Source: Ruminococcus sp.
GTDB lineage: Bacteria; Bacillota; Clostridia; Oscillospirales; Ruminococcaceae
Direction of reading: 5' to 3'
DNA: 45,737 nt
Assembly: GCA_017960805.1 (NCBI GenBank)
Contig: JAGCYM010000105.1
Span: forward strand, 1 to 45,737
Numbering within the stretch: position 1 is the first letter of the stretch; the number at the start of each line of letters is the position of its first letter. The notes beneath the pieces are model-generated. The model was not told the DNA's origin. It worked only from the letters and a program-made list of their open reading frames with translations, and ran no database searches. Below are positions 17,823-29,514 of this stretch, piece after piece. The position numbers and the translations under genes were made by a program.

Positions 17823-20597
17823 CTATTTCAGAAATGAAACGATATCATCATCTCCGCCTGTAGAAATATAGCTGTAATAACCAAGTATCCTTGAAGCATC
17901 TGATGAATCTATTTTCCCGTCAGAGTTAAGATCACCAGCTATGATCTGTTCACTGGAAAAGTTCTGATCCGAGTCAGTTGAAAGGCCTGCATACTCAGCG
18001 AGTACATCTGAAGCGTCAGAAGAGTCAACCTTTCCGTCTCCGTTCACATCACCCATAGTGTGAATGATATCTGGTATAAGATTAAGCGCGGCAGCAACGT
18101 CTGCAGAACTGAGTCTGCCGTCAAAGGAGAGATCAGACATATATGTGTATTCTTCTTTGCTGACTATGCTGCTGTAGATAGCAGAAACATCATTGAAGGT
18201 AATCTTAGAATCATTATCTATGTCTCCCATTACCTTTGAACAAGAAGGGAGCTTTGTAGGCTGGAAGCTGTGAAGTGCTGAAGGTGATTCTAATTTAAAA
18301 CCTTTTTTGGAGTCAGAAGTGATCTCGCTGTCGCCTCTTAGAAAACAGTTGTATGAAATCGCGTCTCCGTCGTCCCAGGTCGTATCAACATGGAACCAGT
18401 CGTCACCAAGCTTCACGAGATTCCAGGCATGAGCTTTAGTGCAAACATAGCAGCATTCAATACCGGCTTTATGGAGGAGAAGATTATATGCTCTGGAGTA
18501 TCCTTCGCATACAGCTACTCCATCCCAGAATATAGCGGAATCAACATGATTGCCGACAAAACCTTCATTGCCGTTGTCGTAGACCGTATTATTACAGATC
18601 CAGTCATGAATACTTCTTATCTTTTCCATATCAGACATGGAATCATCAATGATCTCAGCGACAATTTCGTTGACTCTGTTCATTGTAAATCTGTTCACAA
18701 ATCCGACTTCCTGAGCTGTCTGACAGTTCTTGAAAAAGTAATCCTTCAACTCGGGAGCTATTTCGGAACTGTTTTCAGATACGACTTCAATCCCGTTGAT
18801 ATAGAACAGATTATTGCAGCCGTTAAAGCATCTGCCTGATATATTCTGTGACAAGTTAAAATCAACTTCATTAAGTTTAGGACAGTTGCAGAATGCAAGT
18901 TCTGCGACATTGCACTTATCCCCGAAAACAACAGTTTCAAGTTCGGGGCATTCACTGAATGCATTTGCGGATATTTCAACTTCTCCATTGAAAACAAGTT
19001 TCTTCAGCTTCGAACATCCGCGGAAGGCGTCAGAATTGATGCTGACTTTTCCGTTTGGAAAAACAATTTCTTCTATTTTAGAGTTGCTGAAAGCACATGA
19101 ACCAATAGTGACTTCGTTTATATCCGGATCAAAGATTACTCGCTTAAGGTTTTCTGTGGCGTATACTCCGCCTTTGAAAAAGACTTTGTTACCGGCTCTG
19201 AAGGAAATTTCTTCAAGAGTTTCCGGCATTGATCCATGGCTGAAAGTGCAGTTTCCAGGAAGTTCTAGTCTGGTTATGGACGTTCCTGTGAAAGGAACAT
19301 CATCTCCTGAAGTACTTCCTATTGTCATTTCGTCCCCCTGAAAGATGACTTCTTTCAGATTTTTGCAATTATGAAAAGCGTGCTGGCATATCTGAGTTAC
19401 ATTTGGCGGAATAACTGCGGATGACAGTGAAGTACAGTCATTAAACTGCCAGTCGAGTACAGATATTGTCTCCGGGATCGTAACCTTTGTTACAGTGCTG
19501 CTTCCGAGTCGTGGAAATATTTTCATTCCATCTGCCAGTGCTACTTCTTCTACATAGTTGTTTTCTTCAAGAACAGGTCGTTTATAATCAAAATTGATCG
19601 CGTAATCTCCGACTTTATCTGGAATGGTAAGAGACTTTTCTGTTCCGATGTATTTAAGAAGGGAAATCTTCAGCTCTTTTTCCCTTTCCTTCTGAAAGTA
19701 CAGTATCCAGTCATTGACGCACTTTGTTCCATATTGAATATTTTTAGCGATCGTTGCGCTGGAATAGCTGTCCATGTATTTTTCGGGGATAATAACATTC
19801 GGGGAATCAGGGAATGCTGTTGCGGATACTATAAGCAGGTCATCGTGAAACGAAACATTATTAAGGAATGTGCAGCCCATGAAGCAATTGTCCGGGATAA
19901 ACATAATGCTTTTAGGTATGTTCAGTGATGTTACAGATGAGTTCGCAAAATCACAGGTGTCAATAGATTCAATCGTATCCGGTAGAGTGACTTTTCCGAT
20001 ATTATTGACGTTGCAGAATGCTCCTTCACCTTCTGTGTTAAGTAAAGTTACTGTGCATCCGGCTACTTTTTCAGGTATCTCAACATCAAGAAAGTTTTCA
20101 GATCTGCTGTTTATTTCAGGTGAATATGATATGTCTGGATCCTGTGTTGTGGCATGTTTCCACTGATAAACAGAAACCTCATTATCTGAACGTCTGTCTT
20201 CATTAAATGCATACACAAAATCTTTTGTATGAACGAAGGAAATATCGTTGTGAGCAAGAAAGTCATCATCGAATTGTGCGGTATTATCATTAATGAATAT
20301 TGAAGCATCATAGATGTGACAGTTATCAAAAGTTGTCTTTTCAAAATAAATTACCTTGTGATCGTCAAGCACAGTCGGAAGCGTGATCATCTCATCTGAA
20401 ATGTCATCAGCTTCAATATGACCAACAACTTTAGCTCCGCCATCGATCAGTTCATAGATCCAGCCATCACATTCGTATTGTGTATTATCAGAATAATCCT
20501 CCGCAACAGCGGCTGAATGATATGGTATAGTATTAGCTCCGCAGCCTATAGATATTGCTGCAGTAATAATGATTGACAAACTCTTTCTGAATAACAT
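17823..20597 (-). CDS. secreted LRR protein with transglutaminase-like domain and two dockerin modules
   Basis: 924 residues. Signal peptide at about 1-32. Leucine-rich repeats of the BspA/LRR_5 type from about 170 to 620, with repeated units such as IPKSIMFIPDNCFMGCTFL and IPETISVLDWQFNDCTSL. A transglutaminase-like cysteine protease fold lies at about 660-760, with a plausible triad: Cys in AVCEGYSRAYNLLL (about 696), His in AHAWNLVKL (about 723) and Asp in FHVDTTWDD (about 738). Two dockerin modules close the protein: a divergent one at about 788-848 (MGDIDNDSKITFNDVS) and a good one at about 848-917, with loops GDVNGDGKVDSSDAS and GDLNSDGKIDSSDAS. GAGAGGGAG precedes the ATG. The enzyme may act on peptides or crosslinks at the cell surface or in the cellulosome; that is inference. 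Confidence 0.85.
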   Translation of the reverse strand: MLFRKSLSIIITAAISIGCGANTIPYHSAAVAEDYSDNTQYECDGWIYELIDGGAKVVGHIEADDISDEMITLPTVLDDHKVIYFEKTTFDNCHIYDASIFINDNTAQFDDDFLAHNDISFVHTKDFVYAFNEDRRSDNEVSVYQWKHATTQDPDISYSPEINSRSENFLDVEIPEKVAGCTVTLLNTEGEGAFCNVNNIGKVTLPDTIESIDTCDFANSSVTSLNIPKSIMFIPDNCFMGCTFLNNVSFHDDLLIVSATAFPDSPNVIIPEKYMDSYSSATIAKNIQYGTKCVNDWILYFQKEREKELKISLLKYIGTEKSLTIPDKVGDYAINFDYKRPVLEENNYVEEVALADGMKIFPRLGSSTVTKVTIPETISVLDWQFNDCTSLSSAVIPPNVTQICQHAFHNCKNLKEVIFQGDEMTIGSTSGDDVPFTGTSITRLELPGNCTFSHGSMPETLEEISFRAGNKVFFKGGVYATENLKRVIFDPDINEVTIGSCAFSNSKIEEIVFPNGKVSINSDAFRGCSKLKKLVFNGEVEISANAFSECPELETVVFGDKCNVAELAFCNCPKLNEVDFNLSQNISGRCFNGCNNLFYINGIEVVSENSSEIAPELKDYFFKNCQTAQEVGFVNRFTMNRVNEIVAEIIDDSMSDMEKIRSIHDWICNNTVYDNGNEGFVGNHVDSAIFWDGVAVCEGYSRAYNLLLHKAGIECCYVCTKAHAWNLVKLGDDWFHVDTTWDDGDAISYNCFLRGDSEITSDSKKGFKLESPSALHSFQPTKLPSCSKVMGDIDNDSKITFNDVSAIYSSIVSKEEYTYMSDLSFDGRLSSADVAAALNLIPDIIHTMGDVNGDGKVDSSDASDVLAEYAGLSTDSDQNFSSEQIIAGDLNSDGKIDSSDASRILGYYSYISTGGDDDIVSFLK

Positions 20598-20905: not shown

Positions 20906-22576
20906 CTATTTGCATTCAGTGCAGATATACTCAGGAACTGTCCGATCATTGATAACCGATTCATATAATCTCCATCCGCCTGCAAGATTGTAGCAGTCGT
21001 AACCGTTTCCGTTCAGAATACGGCATGCTATATAGCTTCGCAGTCCGCTGTGGCAATGAACATATACGGGCTTGTCCTTTGGCAGTTTGTCAATGTTGTC
21101 ACGCAGTGTATCAAGGGGAATATTATAGAATCCGTCTATCATTCCTCTGGCAATCTCAGTCTTGGTTCTGACATCAAGAAGCGTAACGCTTCCGTCTCTT
21201 GGCAGGCTTTCTACATCGTTCCAGAAAAACTGTTTTACTGTTCCGTTTATTACGTTTTCAGCTACAAATCCTGACATATTCACCGGATCTTTTGCGCTTC
21301 CGAAAGGAGGAGCATAGCAGAGTTCAAGATCTTTCAGATCAGTGACCTTAGCTCTGAAACGGATTGCGGACGCAAGCACATCCATACGCTTGTCCACTCC
21401 GTCAAATCCGACTACCTGAGCACCGATAAGCTTATGAGTCTTCTTATCCCACAGAACTTTGACGGACATGTTCGTTGCATTGGGATAATATGATGCGTGA
21501 GAAGCTGAATAGGTATAGGTTTTGTCATAATCTATTCCTTCAGCAGCGGCTCGCTTCTCATTAAGTCCCGTAGTCGCAACAGTCATATCAAACAGTTTCA
21601 GTATGGCTGACCCCTGAGTACCCGTATATTCTGAGGGAATGCCGGCGATATTGTCAGCTGCTATTCGTCCCTGTTTGTTGGCAGGACCTGCAAGTGGAAT
21701 GAATGAAGCAGAACCTGTTATGAAGTCGCTGACTTCAACAGCGTCACCTACAGCATAGATGTCAGGATAGTTTGTCTGCATTTTCCTGTTCACGATTATA
21801 CTTCCACGTGAGTTAAGGGCAATGCCGCAATTCTTTGCAAGAGAAGTCTCAGGACGGACACCTACTGACATTATGACCATATCAGCTTCGATACTGCCGT
21901 TCTGCAGAATGACTTCCTTATCAGTTATCCCAGTGATCCCATTGTTAAGGAAAAGCCGAATTCCTTTGTTTCTGATATATCGGTGAACGTCGGCAGCCAT
22001 GTCTGCGTCAAGAGGTGCGATAAGGTGATCAGCCAGCTCGACAATAGATACTTCAAGGCCAGCGTTTACGATGCTTTCTGCCATTTCCACCCCGATATAT
22101 CCGCCACCGACAATTATTGCTTTCTTGGGGTGACTGCTGTCGATGAAGTTCTTGATCTTCATCGTGTCAGGTATATTCCGAAGCGTGAATACATGTGGGA
22201 GATCAATACCACTGATATTCGGACGAATCGGTTCAGCGCCGGGAGAGAGTATCAGCTTGTCGAAGGATTCCTCGTATTCCTCACCTGTATCGACATTCCG
22301 TACTGTAACTGTATGAATATCAGGAGATATTTTTACAGCTTCGCTCTTTACACGCACATCGATATTGAAGCGTTTGCGGAAGCTTTCAGGTGTCTGCAGC
22401 GTCAGCATATTTCTGTCATTTATCTCACCGCCGATAAAGTATGGCAGACCGCAGTTTGCAAATGAGATATAGCCACCGCGTTCCAGGATAATTATCTCAT
22501 CATTTTCCTTTAAACGGCGCAGTCTTGCGGCTGCGGAAGCTCCGCCTGCAACGCCGCCGATAATAATTGTTTTCAT
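20906..22576 (-). CDS. CoA-disulfide reductase with C-terminal rhodanese domain
   Basis: A 556-residue flavoprotein. The N-terminal Rossmann motif IIIGGVAGGASAAARLRRL binds FAD. The single active-site Cys C42 in SFANCGLPYFIGG is the hallmark of CoA-disulfide/persulfide reductases. IIVGGGYIGVEMAE binds NAD(P)H and YAVGDAVEV closes the FAD site. The last ~100 residues are a rhodanese domain, LLDVRTKTEIARG and active loop CHSGLRS, as in CoADR-RHD enzymes that reduce CoA disulfide or persulfides. I start at 22576, with GGAGG just upstream; a longer reading frame would run back through the divergent regulator. Neighbouring regulator, thioredoxin and iron-sulfur proteins support a thiol/sulfur redox role. 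Confidence 0.92.
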   Translation of the reverse strand: MKTIIIGGVAGGASAAARLRRLKENDEIIILERGGYISFANCGLPYFIGGEINDRNMLTLQTPESFRKRFNIDVRVKSEAVKISPDIHTVTVRNVDTGEEYEESFDKLILSPGAEPIRPNISGIDLPHVFTLRNIPDTMKIKNFIDSSHPKKAIIVGGGYIGVEMAESIVNAGLEVSIVELADHLIAPLDADMAADVHRYIRNKGIRLFLNNGITGITDKEVILQNGSIEADMVIMSVGVRPETSLAKNCGIALNSRGSIIVNRKMQTNYPDIYAVGDAVEVSDFITGSASFIPLAGPANKQGRIAADNIAGIPSEYTGTQGSAILKLFDMTVATTGLNEKRAAAEGIDYDKTYTYSASHASYYPNATNMSVKVLWDKKTHKLIGAQVVGFDGVDKRMDVLASAIRFRAKVTDLKDLELCYAPPFGSAKDPVNMSGFVAENVINGTVKQFFWNDVESLPRDGSVTLLDVRTKTEIARGMIDGFYNIPLDTLRDNIDKLPKDKPVYVHCHSGLRSYIACRILNGNGYDCYNLAGGWRLYESVINDRTVPEYICTECK

Positions 22577-22601
22577 TTTTCTACCTCCGAAAGGAAATAT
22601 T

Positions 22602-23264
22602 ATGTTTGAAGAAATATATAGTGGATTATTCCCGTTCTGGGACAAAATAACCGATGATGACCGTACTTTTATATGTGATAATTCATCTGTGCATAAATAT
22701 GAAAAAGGTACAAACCTGCATAACGGCAGCGAATGCTCCGGAGTAATATTCGTACTCAGCGGTAGTCTCCGTGTGTATATAATGTCAGAGGACGGAAAGG
22801 ACGTGACCCTGTATCGTCTGCATAAGGGGGATATGTGCATGCTTTCCGCCTCCTGCGTTCTGCAGTCCATAACATTTGAAGTTGTCATAGATGCTGAGGA
22901 GGACAGTGAATGCTGCATCATCAGCGGTCACGCCTTCAAGCAGGTCTCGGAGCGCAATCCAGAGATCAGAATATTCTCACTTGAAACTGCTGTCTCACGT
23001 TTTTCTGATGTAATGTGGGTAATGCAGCAGATATTGTTTATGAGCCTTGACAAGCGCCTTGCGATATTTCTTCACGATGAGTCTCTGCGTATGGACTCGG
23101 ATAATATCCAGCTTACGCAGGAGCAGATAGCGAAGTACATCGGCTCGGCACGTGAAGTCGTGTCACGAATGCTGAAATACTTCGCTAACGAGGGTATTGT
23201 TGAGGTATCACGCAAAGGTGTTAAGATACTTGATAAGAAGCGGCTGCGTGAATTAACCCTTTAA
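22602..23264 (+). CDS. Crp/Fnr-family transcription regulator
   Basis: 220 residues: a cyclic-nucleotide-binding-type beta barrel (about 15-120), a dimer helix, and a winged HTH in LTQEQIAKYIGSAREVVSRMLKYF. The recognition helix SAREVVSRML keeps the R-E-x-x-x-R pattern with which E. coli Crp reads GTGA. Six Cys lie in the sensor half (25, 45, 79, 85, 104, 105), including MCMLSASC, so thiol or iron-sulfur sensing is possible; the ligand is unknown. GAAAGGAAAT precedes the ATG. Its start lies only 25 bp from the divergent CoA-disulfide reductase start, and its 3' end overlaps the convergent thioredoxin gene by 12 bases. It is the natural candidate for binding the TGTGAC-N3-GTCACA sites at 23622 and 24441. 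Confidence 0.9.
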   Translation: MFEEIYSGLFPFWDKITDDDRTFICDNSSVHKYEKGTNLHNGSECSGVIFVLSGSLRVYIMSEDGKDVTLYRLHKGDMCMLSASCVLQSITFEVVIDAEEDSECCIISGHAFKQVSERNPEIRIFSLETAVSRFSDVMWVMQQILFMSLDKRLAIFLHDESLRMDSDNIQLTQEQIAKYIGSAREVVSRMLKYFANEGIVEVSRKGVKILDKKRLRELTL

Positions 23265-23561
23265 CATATTTAGTATATCTGTTTTCGGACGGAATCCGAC
23301 AGCGTGTGCTGTTACTTTGCCACCTTTCATAACTGCGAGCATCGGGATGCTTGAAACGCCGAACGCAGCTGCAAGCTCAGGCTGAGCATCTACATTTATC
23401 TTGCCTACTGTGAACTCGCTGTGTTCTTCTGCTATCTCGTCAACGAGAGGGGAGACCATTCTGCAAGGTCCGCACCAGTCTGCGTAGAAGTCCAGAAGGA
23501 CCGGCTTTTCACTTGCTCTTACCTCTGCGAAATTTTCCTTTGTAACCTTTATAACTGCCAT
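23253..23561 (-). CDS. trxA: thioredoxin
   Basis: 102 residues with the canonical active site FYADWCGPCRMVSP at about 27-40 and the cis-Pro loop SSIPMLAV. It is reduced by thioredoxin reductase or a flavoprotein partner and in turn reduces protein disulfides. ATG 23561 has AAAGGAAG seven bases upstream. It has its own promoter with a Crp/Fnr-type site (23595-23636) lying inside the end of the upstream iron-sulfur membrane protein gene. Confidence 0.93.
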   Translation of the reverse strand: MAVIKVTKENFAEVRASEKPVLLDFYADWCGPCRMVSPLVDEIAEEHSEFTVGKINVDAQPELAAAFGVSSIPMLAVMKGGKVTAHAVGFRPKTDILNMLKG

Positions 23562-23594: not shown

Positions 23595-23636
23595 ATTATA
23601 CTTCATTATTCAGTGATTGTCTGTGACTTTGTCACG
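23595..23636 (-). promoter_or_regulatory. Crp/Fnr-type activator site and -10 box of the thioredoxin gene
   Basis: The palindrome at 23622-23636 reads, on the minus strand, CGTGACAAAGTCACA. Exactly 21 bp later comes TATAAT (complement of 23595-23600), with no good -35. This puts the site centre about 41 bases before the expected start, the position of a class II activator. The palindrome also encodes the VTKSQ end of the upstream protein. Confidence 0.75.
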
Positions 23637-24205
23637 TTTCTGGCTCTGCATATTAGCTGAGTCATTGTGCCCATAGGACAATAAACGCACCATGAACGGG
23701 GCTTGAACAGAATCATTGTAAAAAAGCCGAGTATAGTCGATGTCAGCATGATACTGTAGAATCCGAATGCGAACTGAGCGACTCCGTCAGAGAACAGAGT
23801 TCCGTGATACGCCCAGTGCCATGGCACTTTGAATGTCCATAGCAGTTTTATCGCCTGTCCGAGGGGACGTTCTCCTGCGAAAACAAGATATGTGTTCCAG
23901 AGCATTATAAAGAACATTGTAAAGAAGAATATAAGGAATCCGTAGCGGAAGAATTTTGACTTCATCCATTTAGGCATATCCTTTTTCCTTGATAAACCGA
24001 AATGCCCTCCGAGCATTGAGAATAGTTGCCCACGGCCGCAGAATTTGTTGCAGTATGCTTTATTGCCCAATCCTATAGATATGACAAGCGGAACAATGAA
24101 GCAGATCATTCCAAGCCAGGCAAACATGATATTGACGAAGCCAAGAATAAGATAAGTCAGAGAGAATAACCATAGATAATCGTACCATTTTTTCTTAGTT
24201 TTCAT
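23606..24205 (-). CDS. NapH-like 4Fe-4S membrane protein
   Basis: 199 residues with four or five transmembrane segments (about 10-30, 32-50, 85-105, 135-165) and Cys motifs on one side: YCNKFCGRGQLF after the second helix and WCVYCPMGTMTQLIC near the C-terminus. This is the pattern of NapH/RdxA-like quinol or ferredoxin-linked electron carriers. Start at 24205, supported by GGAGG nine bases upstream; it overlaps the end of the ferredoxin gene by 11 bases, so the two are coupled. It probably moves electrons between the membrane and the ferredoxin; the partner reductase is not in the window. Confidence 0.82.
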   Translation of the reverse strand: MKTKKKWYDYLWLFSLTYLILGFVNIMFAWLGMICFIVPLVISIGLGNKAYCNKFCGRGQLFSMLGGHFGLSRKKDMPKWMKSKFFRYGFLIFFFTMFFIMLWNTYLVFAGERPLGQAIKLLWTFKVPWHWAYHGTLFSDGVAQFAFGFYSIMLTSTILGFFTMILFKPRSWCVYCPMGTMTQLICRARNVTKSQTITE

Positions 24206-24395
24206 TGCTTCGATCCTCCAGTGCAATAACGCTTGCAGGGCATTCCCCGGTGCATTTTCCGCATCCTACGCAGAGTAGTTCATCAATAACTGCGTATATG
24301 CCATGTGGTACACTAATAGCCGCTTTAGGACAGACTTTTATACAGCATCCGCATGCTACGCAAAGATTGGTATCAAGTACCGCTTTTCGTTTCAT
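24195..24395 (-). CDS. 2[4Fe-4S] ferredoxin
   Basis: 66 residues with two CX2CX2CX3CP clusters: CVACGCCIKVCP and CVGCGKCTGECP. A small soluble electron carrier. ATG 24395 follows GGAGGCG. It is the first gene of a two-gene operon with the NapH-like protein and is preceded by a Crp/Fnr-type site and -10 box. Confidence 0.93.
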   Translation of the reverse strand: MKRKAVLDTNLCVACGCCIKVCPKAAISVPHGIYAVIDELLCVGCGKCTGECPASVIALEDRSNEN

Positions 24396-24413
24396 ATCAT
24401 CGCCTCCAATTGT

Positions 24414-24455
24414 ATTATATATAATTGTCAGGCTTAATTCTGTGACAAAGTCACA
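24414..24455 (-). promoter_or_regulatory. Crp/Fnr-type activator site and -10 box of the ferredoxin operon
   Basis: A perfect palindrome TGTGACAAAGTCACA at 24441-24455, 21 bp, then TATAAT on the minus strand (complement of 24414-24419). The spacing is identical to the thioredoxin promoter. The half-sites TGTGA/TCACA are 5 bp apart, one fewer than in the E. coli Crp site. Confidence 0.8.
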
Positions 24456-24511: not shown

Positions 24512-25060
24512 ATGTTATACATAAAACCCGCTAATTATGAAGACATAGAAAAGGAATGGATGTTTCAGAGAAGGATACCTTCTGATGAAAACGGGTTCCT
24601 CAATGATTATTATGATATATCCCGTGAGGATTTTGATACAGCTCTTGAGACAATGATAGCTCAGTCAGAAGGAGAAATGCTTCCGGAGGGATATGTGCCG
24701 CAGACGATCTACTATCTCTGGGACGATGATGCCATAGTCGGAACTTTTCATTTCAGGCAATATCTCTGTCAGTCGCTTATTGAGGGAGCAGGACACATTG
24801 GCTATTATATAGCGCCTGAATACCGTGGCAAAGGCTATGCCTCCCAGGGGCTGAAACTGCTGATCGATGATATAAAAGATGCCGTGCTGGAAGATGAGAT
24901 ATATCTGAGAGTTAACAGAGATAATCCTTCATCATTAAAAGTGATGCTTAATAACGGAGGATATATCCATCACCAGGATGAAACAAAAATCTATGTAAGA
25001 ATCAGAAAATATGATGATCTCTTATTCAGGAAAATCTCGGAAAACGAACAGGAGAAATAG
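24512..25060 (+). CDS. GNAT-family N-acetyltransferase
   Basis: 182 residues of the GNAT fold. The acetyl-CoA loop is IGYYIAPEYRGKGYASQGL near residues 96-115, followed by the motif B-like LRVNRDNPSSLKVMLNNGG, in which an Asn precedes the helix as in RimJ/RimL-type enzymes. It transfers acetyl groups to an unknown amine. AAAGAGGAAAAA precedes the ATG. The stop is immediately followed by the ATG of the PhzF gene, so the two form an operon. Confidence 0.88.
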   Translation: MLYIKPANYEDIEKEWMFQRRIPSDENGFLNDYYDISREDFDTALETMIAQSEGEMLPEGYVPQTIYYLWDDDAIVGTFHFRQYLCQSLIEGAGHIGYYIAPEYRGKGYASQGLKLLIDDIKDAVLEDEIYLRVNRDNPSSLKVMLNNGGYIHHQDETKIYVRIRKYDDLLFRKISENEQEK

Positions 25061-26020: not shown

Positions 26021-26061
26021 GTTGACAGAAAATGCACGCCTTTTTGTCTGGAGTGATGATT

Positions 26062-29000
26062 ATGATAACTAACAAATCTGCTTTCTTAAAGATTGCTGAA
26101 GCTTTGCTGGTAGAATATACCAGTGTATACTATATCGATGCAAAAACAAATGAATATCAGTGGTATTCTTCCGATGCTGAATTTCAGTCCCTTCACATAG
26201 AGCAGGGCGGATGGGACTTTTTCAAAAATCTTAAGAGAGATGCCGATAAAGTTATATATGAGGAAGATAAGCATATTTTCATGCAGGATTTCCAGAAGGA
26301 GAATCTTCTTTCTCTTGTTGGCAAGGGGGATAAGCGGAGAATAGAATACCGCCTTATGATCGACGGCAAGCCTGTGTACCATGCCCTGAGCCTTATAAGA
26401 GGTGCGGACGGTACTGACGACTATTTCATTCTCGGTGTAAAGAATATTGACGAGGAAGTCAGAGGGCGTCATCAGGCTGAAAAGTTTGAGCAGGAACGTG
26501 AGATATACAACCAGATCGCCGAAAGTCTTGCCGTTCACTTTGATACACTTTATTATGTTGATATGGAGACGAATGAGTACTTCGAGTATTCTTCCGCAGA
26601 TACATACAAGAGCTTAAATATTCCGACAAGGGGCTCCGATTTTTTCATCGAGAGCATGAAAAATCTGAAGAAATATGTTCATCCGGATGATCAGGAAAGG
26701 GTCATCCCGCTGTTTGAAAAAAACGCAATACTTATGAACCTTAAGAATTCCAGATTGTTCAGTGCAACCTACAGGCTAATTATGGCGGGTAATGTAATGC
26801 AATGCCGATGTGTTCAGATCTGGGCAAGCGATAAGAAGCATATAATTGTAGGCATTGAGAACATCAATGATGAGGTGAATGCACAGGAAGCCTTCGAGGA
26901 AGCAAAGAAGCAAAGTGTTACATATGGACAGATCATCGAGAGTCTTGCTATTCGCTATGATGTAATCTACTATGTCAACGGAGAGACAGGCGAGTATACC
27001 AAGTATTCTTCGGATGCTATTTCAACCGGCCAATCATCGCGTTTTGAAGGTAAGAATTTCTTTATTGAAGCTGTCAGACTCATCAACAAATATGTTCACG
27101 CTGAAGATAAAGACAGAATACTGTCAATGATCGATAAGGACTATATTATTACTGCTTTAGGAAACAGCAAACAGTACAGTGAGAATTACAGAAATCTTGC
27201 AAACAATGGGATGAAATACGGAAGGATCACTGTTATGCGTTCCAATGACAATGTACATTTTATTGTGGGACTTGAAAACATTGATGAAGAGGTCAAGAAG
27301 GAACAGGAGCAGATCGAGGCGCTCAATCATGCAAATGAGCTTGCAAGGCGTGACGGCCTGACCGGCACAAGAAATATGACAGCCTTCTGCGAGTTTGAAG
27401 ATTCTATCCAGAACAGCATTGACAGTGGTATGGGACATTCCCCGTTCGCTATTGTCATATGTGATATCAATGACCTTAAGTATATCAATGATACCAAGGG
27501 ACATAAAGCAGGTGATGAGTATATCAGATCATCCTGCAGAATGATATGCGGTATTTTTGCTCACAGTCCTGTTTTCAGGATCGGTGGAGATGAATTTGCT
27601 GTTGTTCTTGTAGGAAACGACTATGAGAAACGAATTTCTCTTGTTGAGGTGCTGCGAGGAAGAGCACGCCAGAACCTCGAAAGTAAAGATGGTCCTGTTG
27701 TAGCTGTTGGAATAGGTATATATGACAGGATGAACGACAAAAAGGTCTCGGATGTTTTCGAACGGGCTGATGAAGCCATGTATAGAGATAAGCAGTCTCT
27801 GAAATCAGGACAGATTGTAACTGCGATCGAAAGTAAGAAGGAGACTGTTACGCAGATCCCGGCAGAGCGCAAAAGAATTTTGGACGGTATGTTCGAAATG
27901 AACTGTATATCCGCAGAGGGAATGTACGTATTTATTTGCGATATGAAGTATGATTATTCCAGATGGTCAAAAGCAGCTGTAGATTCCTACGGCCTTCCGT
28001 CAGAGTATATGTATGGCGCTGGTGAGATTTGGGAGGAGCATATCCATGAGGAGGACAAAGAGGCATATCGCAGAGGTATTGCTGATATTTTCGCCGGAAA
28101 CCTCAGCGGTCACGATATGCAGTACAGAGCAAGAAGGATAAACGGTGAATATAATGTCTGCACCTGCCGCGGCATTGTACTCAAGGAAGAGAATGGTGAA
28201 CCAGAGTACTTTGTTGGTACAATCAGGGATCACGGCGTACAGAGCAATATAGACAGCCTTACAGGACTCAGGAATCAGTATGGTTTTTTCGAGGATGTAC
28301 AGACTAATATTGTTAAGAATAAGCCGATGCAGATCGCACTCCTGGGAATTGCGAAGTTTTCCGAGATAAACGAGATCTATGGTTACCATTTCGGAAATCT
28401 TGTACTTCAGAAGCTAAGTCGTTTCCTTTTCGATTATGCTGGCAACAGAGCGAGTGTATTCAGGTTAGACGGTACGAAGTTTGCTGTTCTCAGTACCAAT
28501 TTAACTACTGTTGACGAAGTGATAGCGATATATAATGATCTGCGTTCCACCTTAAGAGAAGGCATTCTTATTGATGACAAGAAAATAATGCTTGAACTGA
28601 ACAGCGGGCTTATTGAAATTGACAATTTCAATATCGATACACAGACAATCATGACCTGCCTTTCTTTTGCTTATAATGAGTCAAAAATTAAAAAGCACGG
28701 AGACATGGTCGTATTTAACGATGACCTCAGCAGCGGGAACAAACAGAAAGTTGAGAAATTCCATTCTATCAGAGCATCAATCACTCAGGGCTTTAATGGT
28801 TTTTACCTTATGTATCAACCGGTAGTTGATGCGAAGACGGAGCAGCTGATAGGTGCTGAGGCACTTCTTAGGTGGAAAAGTGAAGAATATGGTATTGTCC
28901 CTCCGGATCAGTTTATCCCTCTTCTAGAACAGGATCCTCTTTTCCCGTCTCTGGGAGAATGGATAATCGAAACCGCGATCAGAGATGCAGGAGAGATAAT

Positions 29001-29514
29001 TAAGAACAATCCGGATTTCGTTATCAATGTCAATGTATCTTATTCTCAGGTTGAAAAGGCGGATTTTGCTGATATGGTAATGGATATACTTGATAAGTCG
29101 TGCTATCCTCCTGAGCAGCTATGTCTTGAAATGACTGAAAGATGCAGGCTTCTGGATACTGATCTTCTCAGGAATACTGTATGCAGCCTGAAAAGCAGAG
29201 GTGTGAAGGTCGCTCTCGACGACTTCGGGACTGGTTTTTCATCTGTCGGGATAGTTAAGGATCTTCCCTTGGATACAGTAAAATTTGACAGGAGTCTTGT
29301 TCGTAATATAGAAAACAGTGCCAGAGATTCGGAACTGATAAAGACACTTGTAATGATGGCGAATACCTGTGGAGCGTCTGTCTGTATTGAGGGAATAGAG
29401 ACTTCAGCTATGGCCGAGATACTCAGACAATTTGATGTTAACAGTTTCCAGGGATATTATTATTCAAAGCCTTTGGTATATGAAGATTTCCAGAAATGGA
29501 GAAAAATTGAGTAA
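26062..29514 (+). CDS. multi-PAS GGDEF/EAL c-di-GMP protein
   Basis: 1150 residues, apparently cytoplasmic. Three tandem PAS-like repeats of about 130 residues open the protein, each with YY(I/V)(D/N)..T.EY..YSS and ending VG..NI(D/N)(D/E)EV. A GGDEF domain follows (RDGLTGTRN, then FRIGGDEFAVVL intact). Next come another PAS (WSKAAVDSYGLPSEYMYG), a second GGDEF that is degenerate (FRLDGTKFAVLS), and an EAL domain that keeps its catalytic residues: GAEALLRW, INVNVSYSQ, CLEMTER, DDFGTGFSS, VKFDRSLV, EGIET and QGYYYSKPL. It may both make and break c-di-GMP under control of the PAS sensors. Start ATG 26062 chosen for GGAG eight bases upstream; two upstream in-frame ATGs lack spacing. Confidence 0.9.
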   Translation: MITNKSAFLKIAEALLVEYTSVYYIDAKTNEYQWYSSDAEFQSLHIEQGGWDFFKNLKRDADKVIYEEDKHIFMQDFQKENLLSLVGKGDKRRIEYRLMIDGKPVYHALSLIRGADGTDDYFILGVKNIDEEVRGRHQAEKFEQEREIYNQIAESLAVHFDTLYYVDMETNEYFEYSSADTYKSLNIPTRGSDFFIESMKNLKKYVHPDDQERVIPLFEKNAILMNLKNSRLFSATYRLIMAGNVMQCRCVQIWASDKKHIIVGIENINDEVNAQEAFEEAKKQSVTYGQIIESLAIRYDVIYYVNGETGEYTKYSSDAISTGQSSRFEGKNFFIEAVRLINKYVHAEDKDRILSMIDKDYIITALGNSKQYSENYRNLANNGMKYGRITVMRSNDNVHFIVGLENIDEEVKKEQEQIEALNHANELARRDGLTGTRNMTAFCEFEDSIQNSIDSGMGHSPFAIVICDINDLKYINDTKGHKAGDEYIRSSCRMICGIFAHSPVFRIGGDEFAVVLVGNDYEKRISLVEVLRGRARQNLESKDGPVVAVGIGIYDRMNDKKVSDVFERADEAMYRDKQSLKSGQIVTAIESKKETVTQIPAERKRILDGMFEMNCISAEGMYVFICDMKYDYSRWSKAAVDSYGLPSEYMYGAGEIWEEHIHEEDKEAYRRGIADIFAGNLSGHDMQYRARRINGEYNVCTCRGIVLKEENGEPEYFVGTIRDHGVQSNIDSLTGLRNQYGFFEDVQTNIVKNKPMQIALLGIAKFSEINEIYGYHFGNLVLQKLSRFLFDYAGNRASVFRLDGTKFAVLSTNLTTVDEVIAIYNDLRSTLREGILIDDKKIMLELNSGLIEIDNFNIDTQTIMTCLSFAYNESKIKKHGDMVVFNDDLSSGNKQKVEKFHSIRASITQGFNGFYLMYQPVVDAKTEQLIGAEALLRWKSEEYGIVPPDQFIPLLEQDPLFPSLGEWIIETAIRDAGEIIKNNPDFVINVNVSYSQVEKADFADMVMDILDKSCYPPEQLCLEMTERCRLLDTDLLRNTVCSLKSRGVKVALDDFGTGFSSVGIVKDLPLDTVKFDRSLVRNIENSARDSELIKTLVMMANTCGASVCIEGIETSAMAEILRQFDVNSFQGYYYSKPLVYEDFQKWRKIE

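Follow-up and report, generated by a model that had tools for sequence, protein, structure and literature searches.

A conserved 15-bp odd dyad as the predicted class II operator of a cysteine-pair Crp/Fnr subfamily in Ruminococcus and relatives

Introduction

In Escherichia coli, class II sites of CRP are centred near position -41, and their even dyad has its centre at -41.5. FNR recognizes the site TTGAT-N4-ATCAA and carries N-terminal cluster cysteines. Target motifs of Crp/FNR proteins were reportedly surveyed by Matsui et al. in 2013, and that survey may contain the operator considered here. According to passages of one report, SdrP (TTHA1359) from Thermus thermophilus is a Crp-family protein that likely responds to oxidative stress by class II activation and has TGTGA-like half-sites (PMC8465061). 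These half-sites are separated by a 6-bp spacer, and observable binding is lost at 5 bp; the same passages describe changes in spacing as usually tolerated by E. coli CRP, so that closer half-sites do not necessarily imply a different dimer (PMC8465061). RedB, for which a nonpalindromic 12-bp AT-rich motif is given in the accessible part of its report (PMC9603854), was set aside, and the passages obtained from PMC12531629 and PMC8510549 contain nothing on half-site spacing. A search of the open-access literature, partly among the matches listed, returned no description of the operator or regulon treated below.

The window analyzed here, a stretch of 45,737 nucleotides, comes from a genome that is Ruminococcus flavefaciens-like, with an assembly of 2.57 Mb that is 64% complete; in a relatives search, the best named relatives of its Crp/Fnr-family regulator were those of R. 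flavefaciens strains (92-95% identity). The system resembles that of E. coli CRP in the half-site core (TGTGA/TCACA), in the R-E-x-x-x-R helix and in a site placed over the -35 region near -41, but its dyad is odd, 15 bp long and predicted to be centred at -41, unlike the even dyad of CRP. With FNR it shares a predicted redox role and the Crp fold; it differs from it in having GTGAC half-sites and sensor-domain cysteines, and E. coli FNR falls outside the clade of the regulator. Compared with SdrP, as described in the available passages, the gap is 5 bp instead of 6 bp (PMC8465061), and a clade apparently using the gap that abolishes observable SdrP binding makes the co-evolution of dimer geometry and operator directly testable. 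From comparisons of the site, its spacing, the promoter layout, the linkage to a regulator family and the kind of target, it seems probable that the two palindromes of the window are operators of the adjacent Crp/Fnr protein, used for class II activation, with a thiol or reactive-sulfur signal as the most likely one. Beyond what a sequence-only reading of the same DNA had proposed, the comparisons point to a kept GA of the -35, to recurrence in Clostridia and some Proteobacteria, and to a family-wide Cys-x5-Cys pair.

Results and Discussion

The regulator gene (22602..23264, plus strand) encodes a protein of 220 aa with the recognition helix SAREVVSR, and is convergent to the thioredoxin gene trx (23253..23561, minus strand, 102 aa), the 3' ends of both overlapping. 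Further along the minus strand are the genes for a membrane 4Fe-4S protein with a Fer4_5 domain (23606..24205), called NapH-like after the sequence-only reading, and for a 2x4Fe-4S ferredoxin of 66 aa (fdx, 24195..24395). Divergent from the regulator lies the gene (20906..22576, minus strand) for a flavoprotein that resembles CoA-disulfide reductase, carries a rhodanese domain at its C-terminus and scores below the NCBIfam cut-off for CoA-disulfide reductase. The start codons of these two divergent genes (22574-22604) are 25 bp apart, and the promoters of regulator and reductase are therefore probably each located inside the coding region of the other gene. A matrix scan found no operator in the gap between them and none before the flavoprotein gene in the window, so that autoregulation of the regulator in the window was rejected; operator-like sites do stand before homologs of the flavoprotein in two other genomes (L152, L164).

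Pattern searches located the palindrome TGTGAC-N3-GTCACA, as had been claimed, without mismatch at 24441..24455 (TGTGACAAAGTCACA; TGTGACTTTGTCACA on the minus strand), where it forms the predicted 15-bp operator of the ferredoxin-NapH unit, and its variant with exactly one mismatch at 23622..23636 (TGTGACTTTGTCACG; CGTGACAAAGTCACA on the minus strand), the predicted 15-bp operator of trx. On the minus strand, both are followed after exactly 21 bases by the -10 box TATAAT (24414..24419 for fdx, 23595..23600 for trx), again in agreement with the earlier reading, and the composite of site, 21 nt and TATAAT spans 24414-24455 and 23595-23636. The trx site also serves as coding sequence, since it falls within the final codons of the NapH-like gene, the stop codon of which is at 23606-23608. 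The further proposal that neither promoter has a good -35 requires some nuance: assuming a spacer of 17 bp, the hexamer is CAGAAT for fdx (24437..24442, minus strand, overlapping the downstream end of the operator) and CAGACA for trx (23618..23623, minus strand), both degenerate, with four of six matches each to TTGACA. The seventh base after the -10 is A in the trx promoter and G in the fdx promoter.

The motif search in relatives that the earlier reading had suggested was carried out in 80 named loci with regulators 70-95% identical (the best 80 of 353; 737,071 bases) and beyond them, and it found the arrangement again across the Clostridia and in some of the Proteobacteria. At k=3 there are 36 copies of the exact dyad TGTGAC-Nk-GTCACA, distributed over 34 of the 80 loci, and at spacers N0-N2 and N4-N14 it is absent from the 737,071 bases. 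Likewise, TGTGA-N5-TCACA was counted 51 times as opposed to a single TGTGA-N6-TCACA, so the prevailing dyad is not the 16-bp one of CRP; the half-site gap of 5 bp, where Crp sites have 6, is thus found in the window and in the 80 loci as the reading had it. Accepted sites, with a -10 following after 21 nt, are present in 71 of the 80 loci, lying before trx in 63, before fdx in 29, before both in 22 and before neither in one (L109). Nine loci have no accepted site (L062, L065, L076, L091, L092, L097, L101, L106 and L107). In L076 the dyad is present but its -10 is at 22 nt, in L062 the contig ends 115 bases past the regulator match, and L091, L092, L097, L101, L106 and L107 contain none of the window's neighbour genes. 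The whole genomes of L092, L097, L101 and L106 were searched, and each has operator-like sites elsewhere, namely before fdx-napH (L151, 0 mismatches), before a CoA-disulfide-reductase homolog (L152, 2 mismatches), in a crp-trx-napH-fdx locus (L150, 1 and 2 mismatches) and before trx (L153, 3 mismatches). In L151, L152 and L153 the operators are retained in front of their targets where the 3-kb locus contains no regulator; as the sites elsewhere in these four genomes show, the operator can follow its target genes without an adjacent regulator. A perfect operator with promoter was also seen near a contig end in L145 (G022:C127), a genome 66% complete in which no regulator was found, perhaps because of an assembly gap.

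At a larger scale, the 42-bp layout with up to two mismatches gave 68 sites in 48 out of 393 genomes of the class, compared with 4 in the reversed control. The regulator family was detected with a profile at E<=1e-20, a threshold set after the table had been seen, in 46 of the 48 site genomes versus 5 of 32 genomes without sites, sampled at intervals of about ten along the list (Fisher p 4e-14, in a test that ignores kinship); at the tool's own threshold of E<=1e-3, the figures are 46/48 and 9/32 (p 9e-11). Looked at family by family, the contrast is maintained in five (f47, f74, f48, f38 and f58) and fails in one (f30), and the two site genomes devoid of the regulator family are G394 and G426, the latter belonging to f58. 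Seen from the side of the regulator, a site within 1.5 kb is missing at 10 of the 29 distant regulator loci, and the ten loci of an earlier relatives search comprise six with a clear site, one with a weak site (L021) and three with none, block-shuffled controls staying below (best 6.8 bits).

The R-E-x-x-x-R pattern attributed to the neighbouring protein is indeed present, as R184-E185-V-V-S-R189. The protein exceeds the cut-offs of PF00027, PF13545 and PF00325, as expected of the Crp/Fnr superfamily; it reaches 67 bits with the NCBIfam CRP equivalog, where at least 266 are needed, and 41 bits with the Fnr model, where at least 228 are needed. Judged by these profile scores, it is a Crp/Fnr-superfamily member that is neither CRP nor FNR. 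Its proposed role as the likely reader agrees with its being the only R-E-x-x-x-R Crp/Fnr protein found in the incomplete genome: the other full-length Crp/Fnr has N-R-S-S-L-Q-R (recognition helix NRSSLQRE), and the third Pfam match, L236, is a protein of 129 aa that by eye belongs to another family. Cys25, Cys45, Cys79 and Cys85 are invariant in 81 sequences of close relatives, and Cys104 is found in 80 of them. Among 65 family rows, which include near copies and reach down to distant members, R184, E185, R189 and Cys45 are present in all, Cys79 and Cys85 in 64 each, Cys25 in 26 and Cys104 in 27. In a phmmer alignment, the stretch CMLSASCVL takes the place of the cAMP-pocket segment of CRP, another difference from CRP. 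Among solved structures, the closest in sequence is 3DV8 (E 1.6e-58), a Crp/Fnr protein from Eubacterium rectale, in which the aligned counterparts of Cys45, Cys79 and Cys85 are kept and those of Cys25 and Cys104 are missing.

In a tree, 80 of 86 rows fall on one branch (support 100/99) and 78 of these 80 have the cysteine pair, in a topology with several long branches on which the pair needs three label changes. Outside this branch are E. coli CRP, itself on a long branch, E. coli FNR, Ruminococcus paralogs and Lactobacillales proteins. The window's regulator displays all the features by which we propose to delimit a subfamily, that is, Cys79-x5-Cys85, R-E-V-[VI]-[ST]-R and a linked GTGAC-N3-GTCAC. 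From these comparisons, we conclude that a Crp/Fnr subfamily with a Cys-x5-Cys pair appears to read an odd operator of 15 bp, where that of CRP has one bp more.

Plasmid-borne homologs from Azospirillum, Paracoccus, Thioclava, Ruegeria, Pseudosulfitobacter, Chelativorans and Thiothrix keep both Cys79-x5-Cys85 and REV[VI]SR. All 13 proteobacterial homologs examined, which come from the best-ranked records of one plasmid collection and so over-represent close relatives, have a dyad (0-3 mismatches) downstream of the regulator that is best at N3, within a region searched from the regulator to the next annotated gene or to the DUF2892 gene; in the two Azospirillum loci this region is long, about 0.4 and 1.3 kb. 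N3 is the sole best spacer in 12 of the 13 and shares the best match with N4 and N6 in Ruegeria L247 (3 mismatches), and among spacers N1-N7 those other than N3 never had fewer than 2 mismatches in these loci. A -10-like box starting with TA lies at 21 nt in 5 of the 13. Other homologs were examined and rejected: the Lactobacillales plasmid homologs L241 and L242 have no cysteine pair, no dyad with up to 2 mismatches and different neighbours; Paenibacillus L253, a fourteenth locus put through the scan used for the 13, lacks both a Cys85 counterpart and a dyad; and the clostridial plasmid homolog L237 (Pusillibacter) keeps the cysteine pair, with no dyad of up to 2 mismatches in its locus. In the Alphaproteobacteria L239, L240 and L243-L250, the Crp/Fnr gene and the 15-bp dyad are found beside MBL-fold, YeeE/YedE, sulfur-transferase or SulP genes, which makes this regulator a candidate for the control of sulfide or persulfide detoxification.

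The targets discussed here are all predictions from site position; ten target proteins (L080, L090, L099, L112, L176, L190, L192, L194, L196 and L199) were scanned with Pfam, and the remaining ones were identified from tblastn matches or by eye. Sites close to the regulator in relatives precede genes for thioredoxin reductase (L080, L116), ferritin (L090), desulfoferrodoxin (L099) and rhodanese (L112), those of L080, L116 and L112 scoring below the others. For distant Clostridia, 30 of the 48 site genomes were examined at one locus each, and in 23 of these loci the gene after the site resembles thiol, oxygen, iron-sulfur or sulfur chemistry, counting L182, where a family regulator and a NapH-like protein follow the site. 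The first genes there include trx, rubrerythrin (L176), OsmC-like (L178, L199, L200), rhodanese (L181, L197, L198), thioredoxin reductase (L196), DsbD-type (L190, L191), peroxiredoxin (L192) and rubredoxin (L194) genes, and further ones for ferredoxin and NapH-like proteins. The first gene is unrelated, or none was called, in the other seven (L183, L185, L186, L187, L193, L202 and L203). In L182 (G290), eight operator-like sites were noted, one of them before a divergent Crp family member; autoregulation of that member is possible, and the sites suggest a wider regulon in this genome. The GNAT gene of the window (24512-25060) was considered as a co-regulated divergent target and rejected, because a tblastn search of the 80 loci at E<=1e-5 gave no match to it; its plus-strand layout is poor as well (3 mismatches).

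Such targets probably describe a regulator that activates thiol, reactive-sulfur and oxygen defence, and the nature of its signal can be argued from the same material. Rubrerythrin, desulfoferrodoxin and ferritin among the targets of relatives would suit an Fe-S or heme oxygen sensor in place of a thiol or reactive-sulfur switch, and the three cysteines conserved in Clostridia could hold a cluster. By analogy, PgRsp from P. gingivalis, modelled on 3DV8, binds heme according to passages of its report (PMC6955866). However, Cys79 and Cys85 are both kept in all 13 proteobacterial members and Cys45 is gone in 10 of them. In addition, 10 of the 13 adjoin genes annotated, as deposited, as MBL-fold hydrolase, YeeE/YedE thiosulfate-transporter, sulfur-transferase or SulP genes (two Azospirillum and the Thiothrix members have only DUF2892 alongside), a context from which we infer a link to persulfide detoxification; and other targets include rhodanese, OsmC and CoA-disulfide-reductase homologs. 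An oxygen sensor is thus rather unlikely in our judgement, and the reductase-rhodanese neighbour in the window, together with the proteobacterial sulfur operons, makes reactive sulfur or disulfides a somewhat likelier signal than oxygen itself.

Whether the dimer activates or represses can be approached from the promoter architecture, summarized in a matrix. It comprises 103 unique readings, which represent 101 distinct palindromes including those of the window; five palindromes were read in both directions. GTGAC and GTCAC are near-invariant, and they are followed downstream by G (0.94), A (0.97) and A (0.79), with no mirror image upstream; with a spacer of 17 bp, the GA coincides with the position of a -35's GA. 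A is conserved as the seventh base after the -10 (0.80), in a matrix whose readings were partly chosen by their -10, so that the -10 columns are not independent evidence. Read as the start site, this conserved A places the dyad centre at -41, a position that is predicted because the start site itself derives from the matrix. The commonest -35 hexamer is CAGAAA (37 of 106 site readings), and 96 of the 106 have at most three matches to TTGACA. Of the 82 sites found with up to one mismatch (in 62 loci), 69 are separated from a -10-like box by exactly 21 nt, read in one direction or in both; each of the other distances was seen for at most 10 sites. A centre near a predicted -41, a fixed -10 spacing and a weak -35 are the marks of a class II promoter, and the class II position put forward by the earlier reading has therefore held at sequence level, over a degenerate -35. 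The same protein at the same sites could also work as a repressor, blocking polymerase over the -35 and letting go under stress, since the dyad overlaps the -35 region like many operators do. Repressor sites usually float more freely, though, and here the spacing to the -10 is fixed, the -35 is degenerate in nearly all readings, and the sole asymmetric flank fits the GA of a -35, all of which makes repression improbable.

The layout with the canonical one-base-longer spacer (N4) was searched in the 393 genomes as well, giving 28 sites in 25 genomes (control 5), with 4 genomes in common with the N3 set; this spacing is real in the class, yet with so little overlap it was rejected as a general rule. 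These canonical 16-bp Crp-type class II sites share the GA flank; other Crp-type activators thus use the same layout, with canonical sites, in other genomes of the class.

Counts in the own genome show how far the motif can be trusted. The bare 15-mer with up to 2 mismatches has 3 matches in the window against 1.28 expected, a number reached by 15 of 100 shuffles, and 90 matches genome-wide against 73 in the reversed control; the bare motif alone is weak evidence, and genome-wide 15-mer counts are uninformative. The site with 21 nt and TATAAT stays at background with up to 3 mismatches (5 versus 5 in the control), and at up to 1 mismatch only the two window sites are left in this 64% complete assembly. 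Adding the GA flank, again with up to 3 mismatches, also leaves the two window sites only, with 0 in the control. Occurrence at random positions across the genome, which the sequence-only reading had named as evidence against itself, is hence true of loose matches and untrue of close matches with the promoter layout. In 35 genomes chosen for holding the regulator, the layout with GA flank has 68 matches versus 3 in the reversed control, three of the 68 being possibly double-counted, as the matches of G030 and G065 are identical and probably belong to one genome. It is very improbable that another transcription factor reads the sites, or that a NapH tail or an RNA hairpin explains their conservation: one site is coding and the dyad could fold as a hairpin, but the dyad stands before trx in loci in which no NapH gene was found (e.g., L055 and L071), lies upstream of the predicted promoter and outside its transcript, and tracks the regulator family across genomes, and the other full-length Crp/Fnr found in the own genome is without R-E-x-x-x-R.

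For class II activation by the adjacent regulator, the proposed mechanism would be as follows, with physical binding, activation over repression, and the signal and its chemistry as its predicted parts. The dimer would read the GTGAC half-sites through R184-E185-xxx-R189, with reading heads closer together, as the half-sites are one bp closer than for E. coli CRP (15-bp odd dyad, GT-X9-AC). Placed at -41, over the weakened CAGAAA-like -35, it would recruit RNA polymerase as a class II activator, and the contact from -41 would compensate for the weak -35 at the trx and ferredoxin-NapH promoters. The signal would most likely be oxidative or reactive-sulfur stress (disulfide or persulfide), perceived through Cys79-x5-Cys85, with Cys45 in addition in Clostridia, and oxidation or persulfidation of Cys79 and Cys85 would alter the activity of the regulator. 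A wider version, which we put forward tentatively and hold to be somewhat doubtful, is that of a cross-phylum Crp/Fnr subfamily with reading heads one bp closer, in which a Cys-x5-Cys switch in the former cAMP pocket senses persulfides or disulfides, and in which one operator code for the thiol and sulfur-stress response is shared by strict gut anaerobes and sulfur-handling Proteobacteria. In practical terms, a predicted stress regulon of Clostridia, among them Ruminococcus and Lachnospiraceae, thereby gains a concrete operator that can be searched for, and reactive sulfur or disulfide becomes a candidate signal that can be addressed by mutating a specific pair of cysteines.

Two further genes of the window were noted by eye. 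The first (26032-29514) encodes a protein of 1160 aa that looks like repeated sensor-like segments with GGDEF- and EAL-like domains of the cyclic-di-GMP type. The second (17823-20597) encodes a protein of 924 aa in which leucine-rich repeats and a transglutaminase-like stretch appear to be followed by a dockerin-like repeat at the C-terminus.
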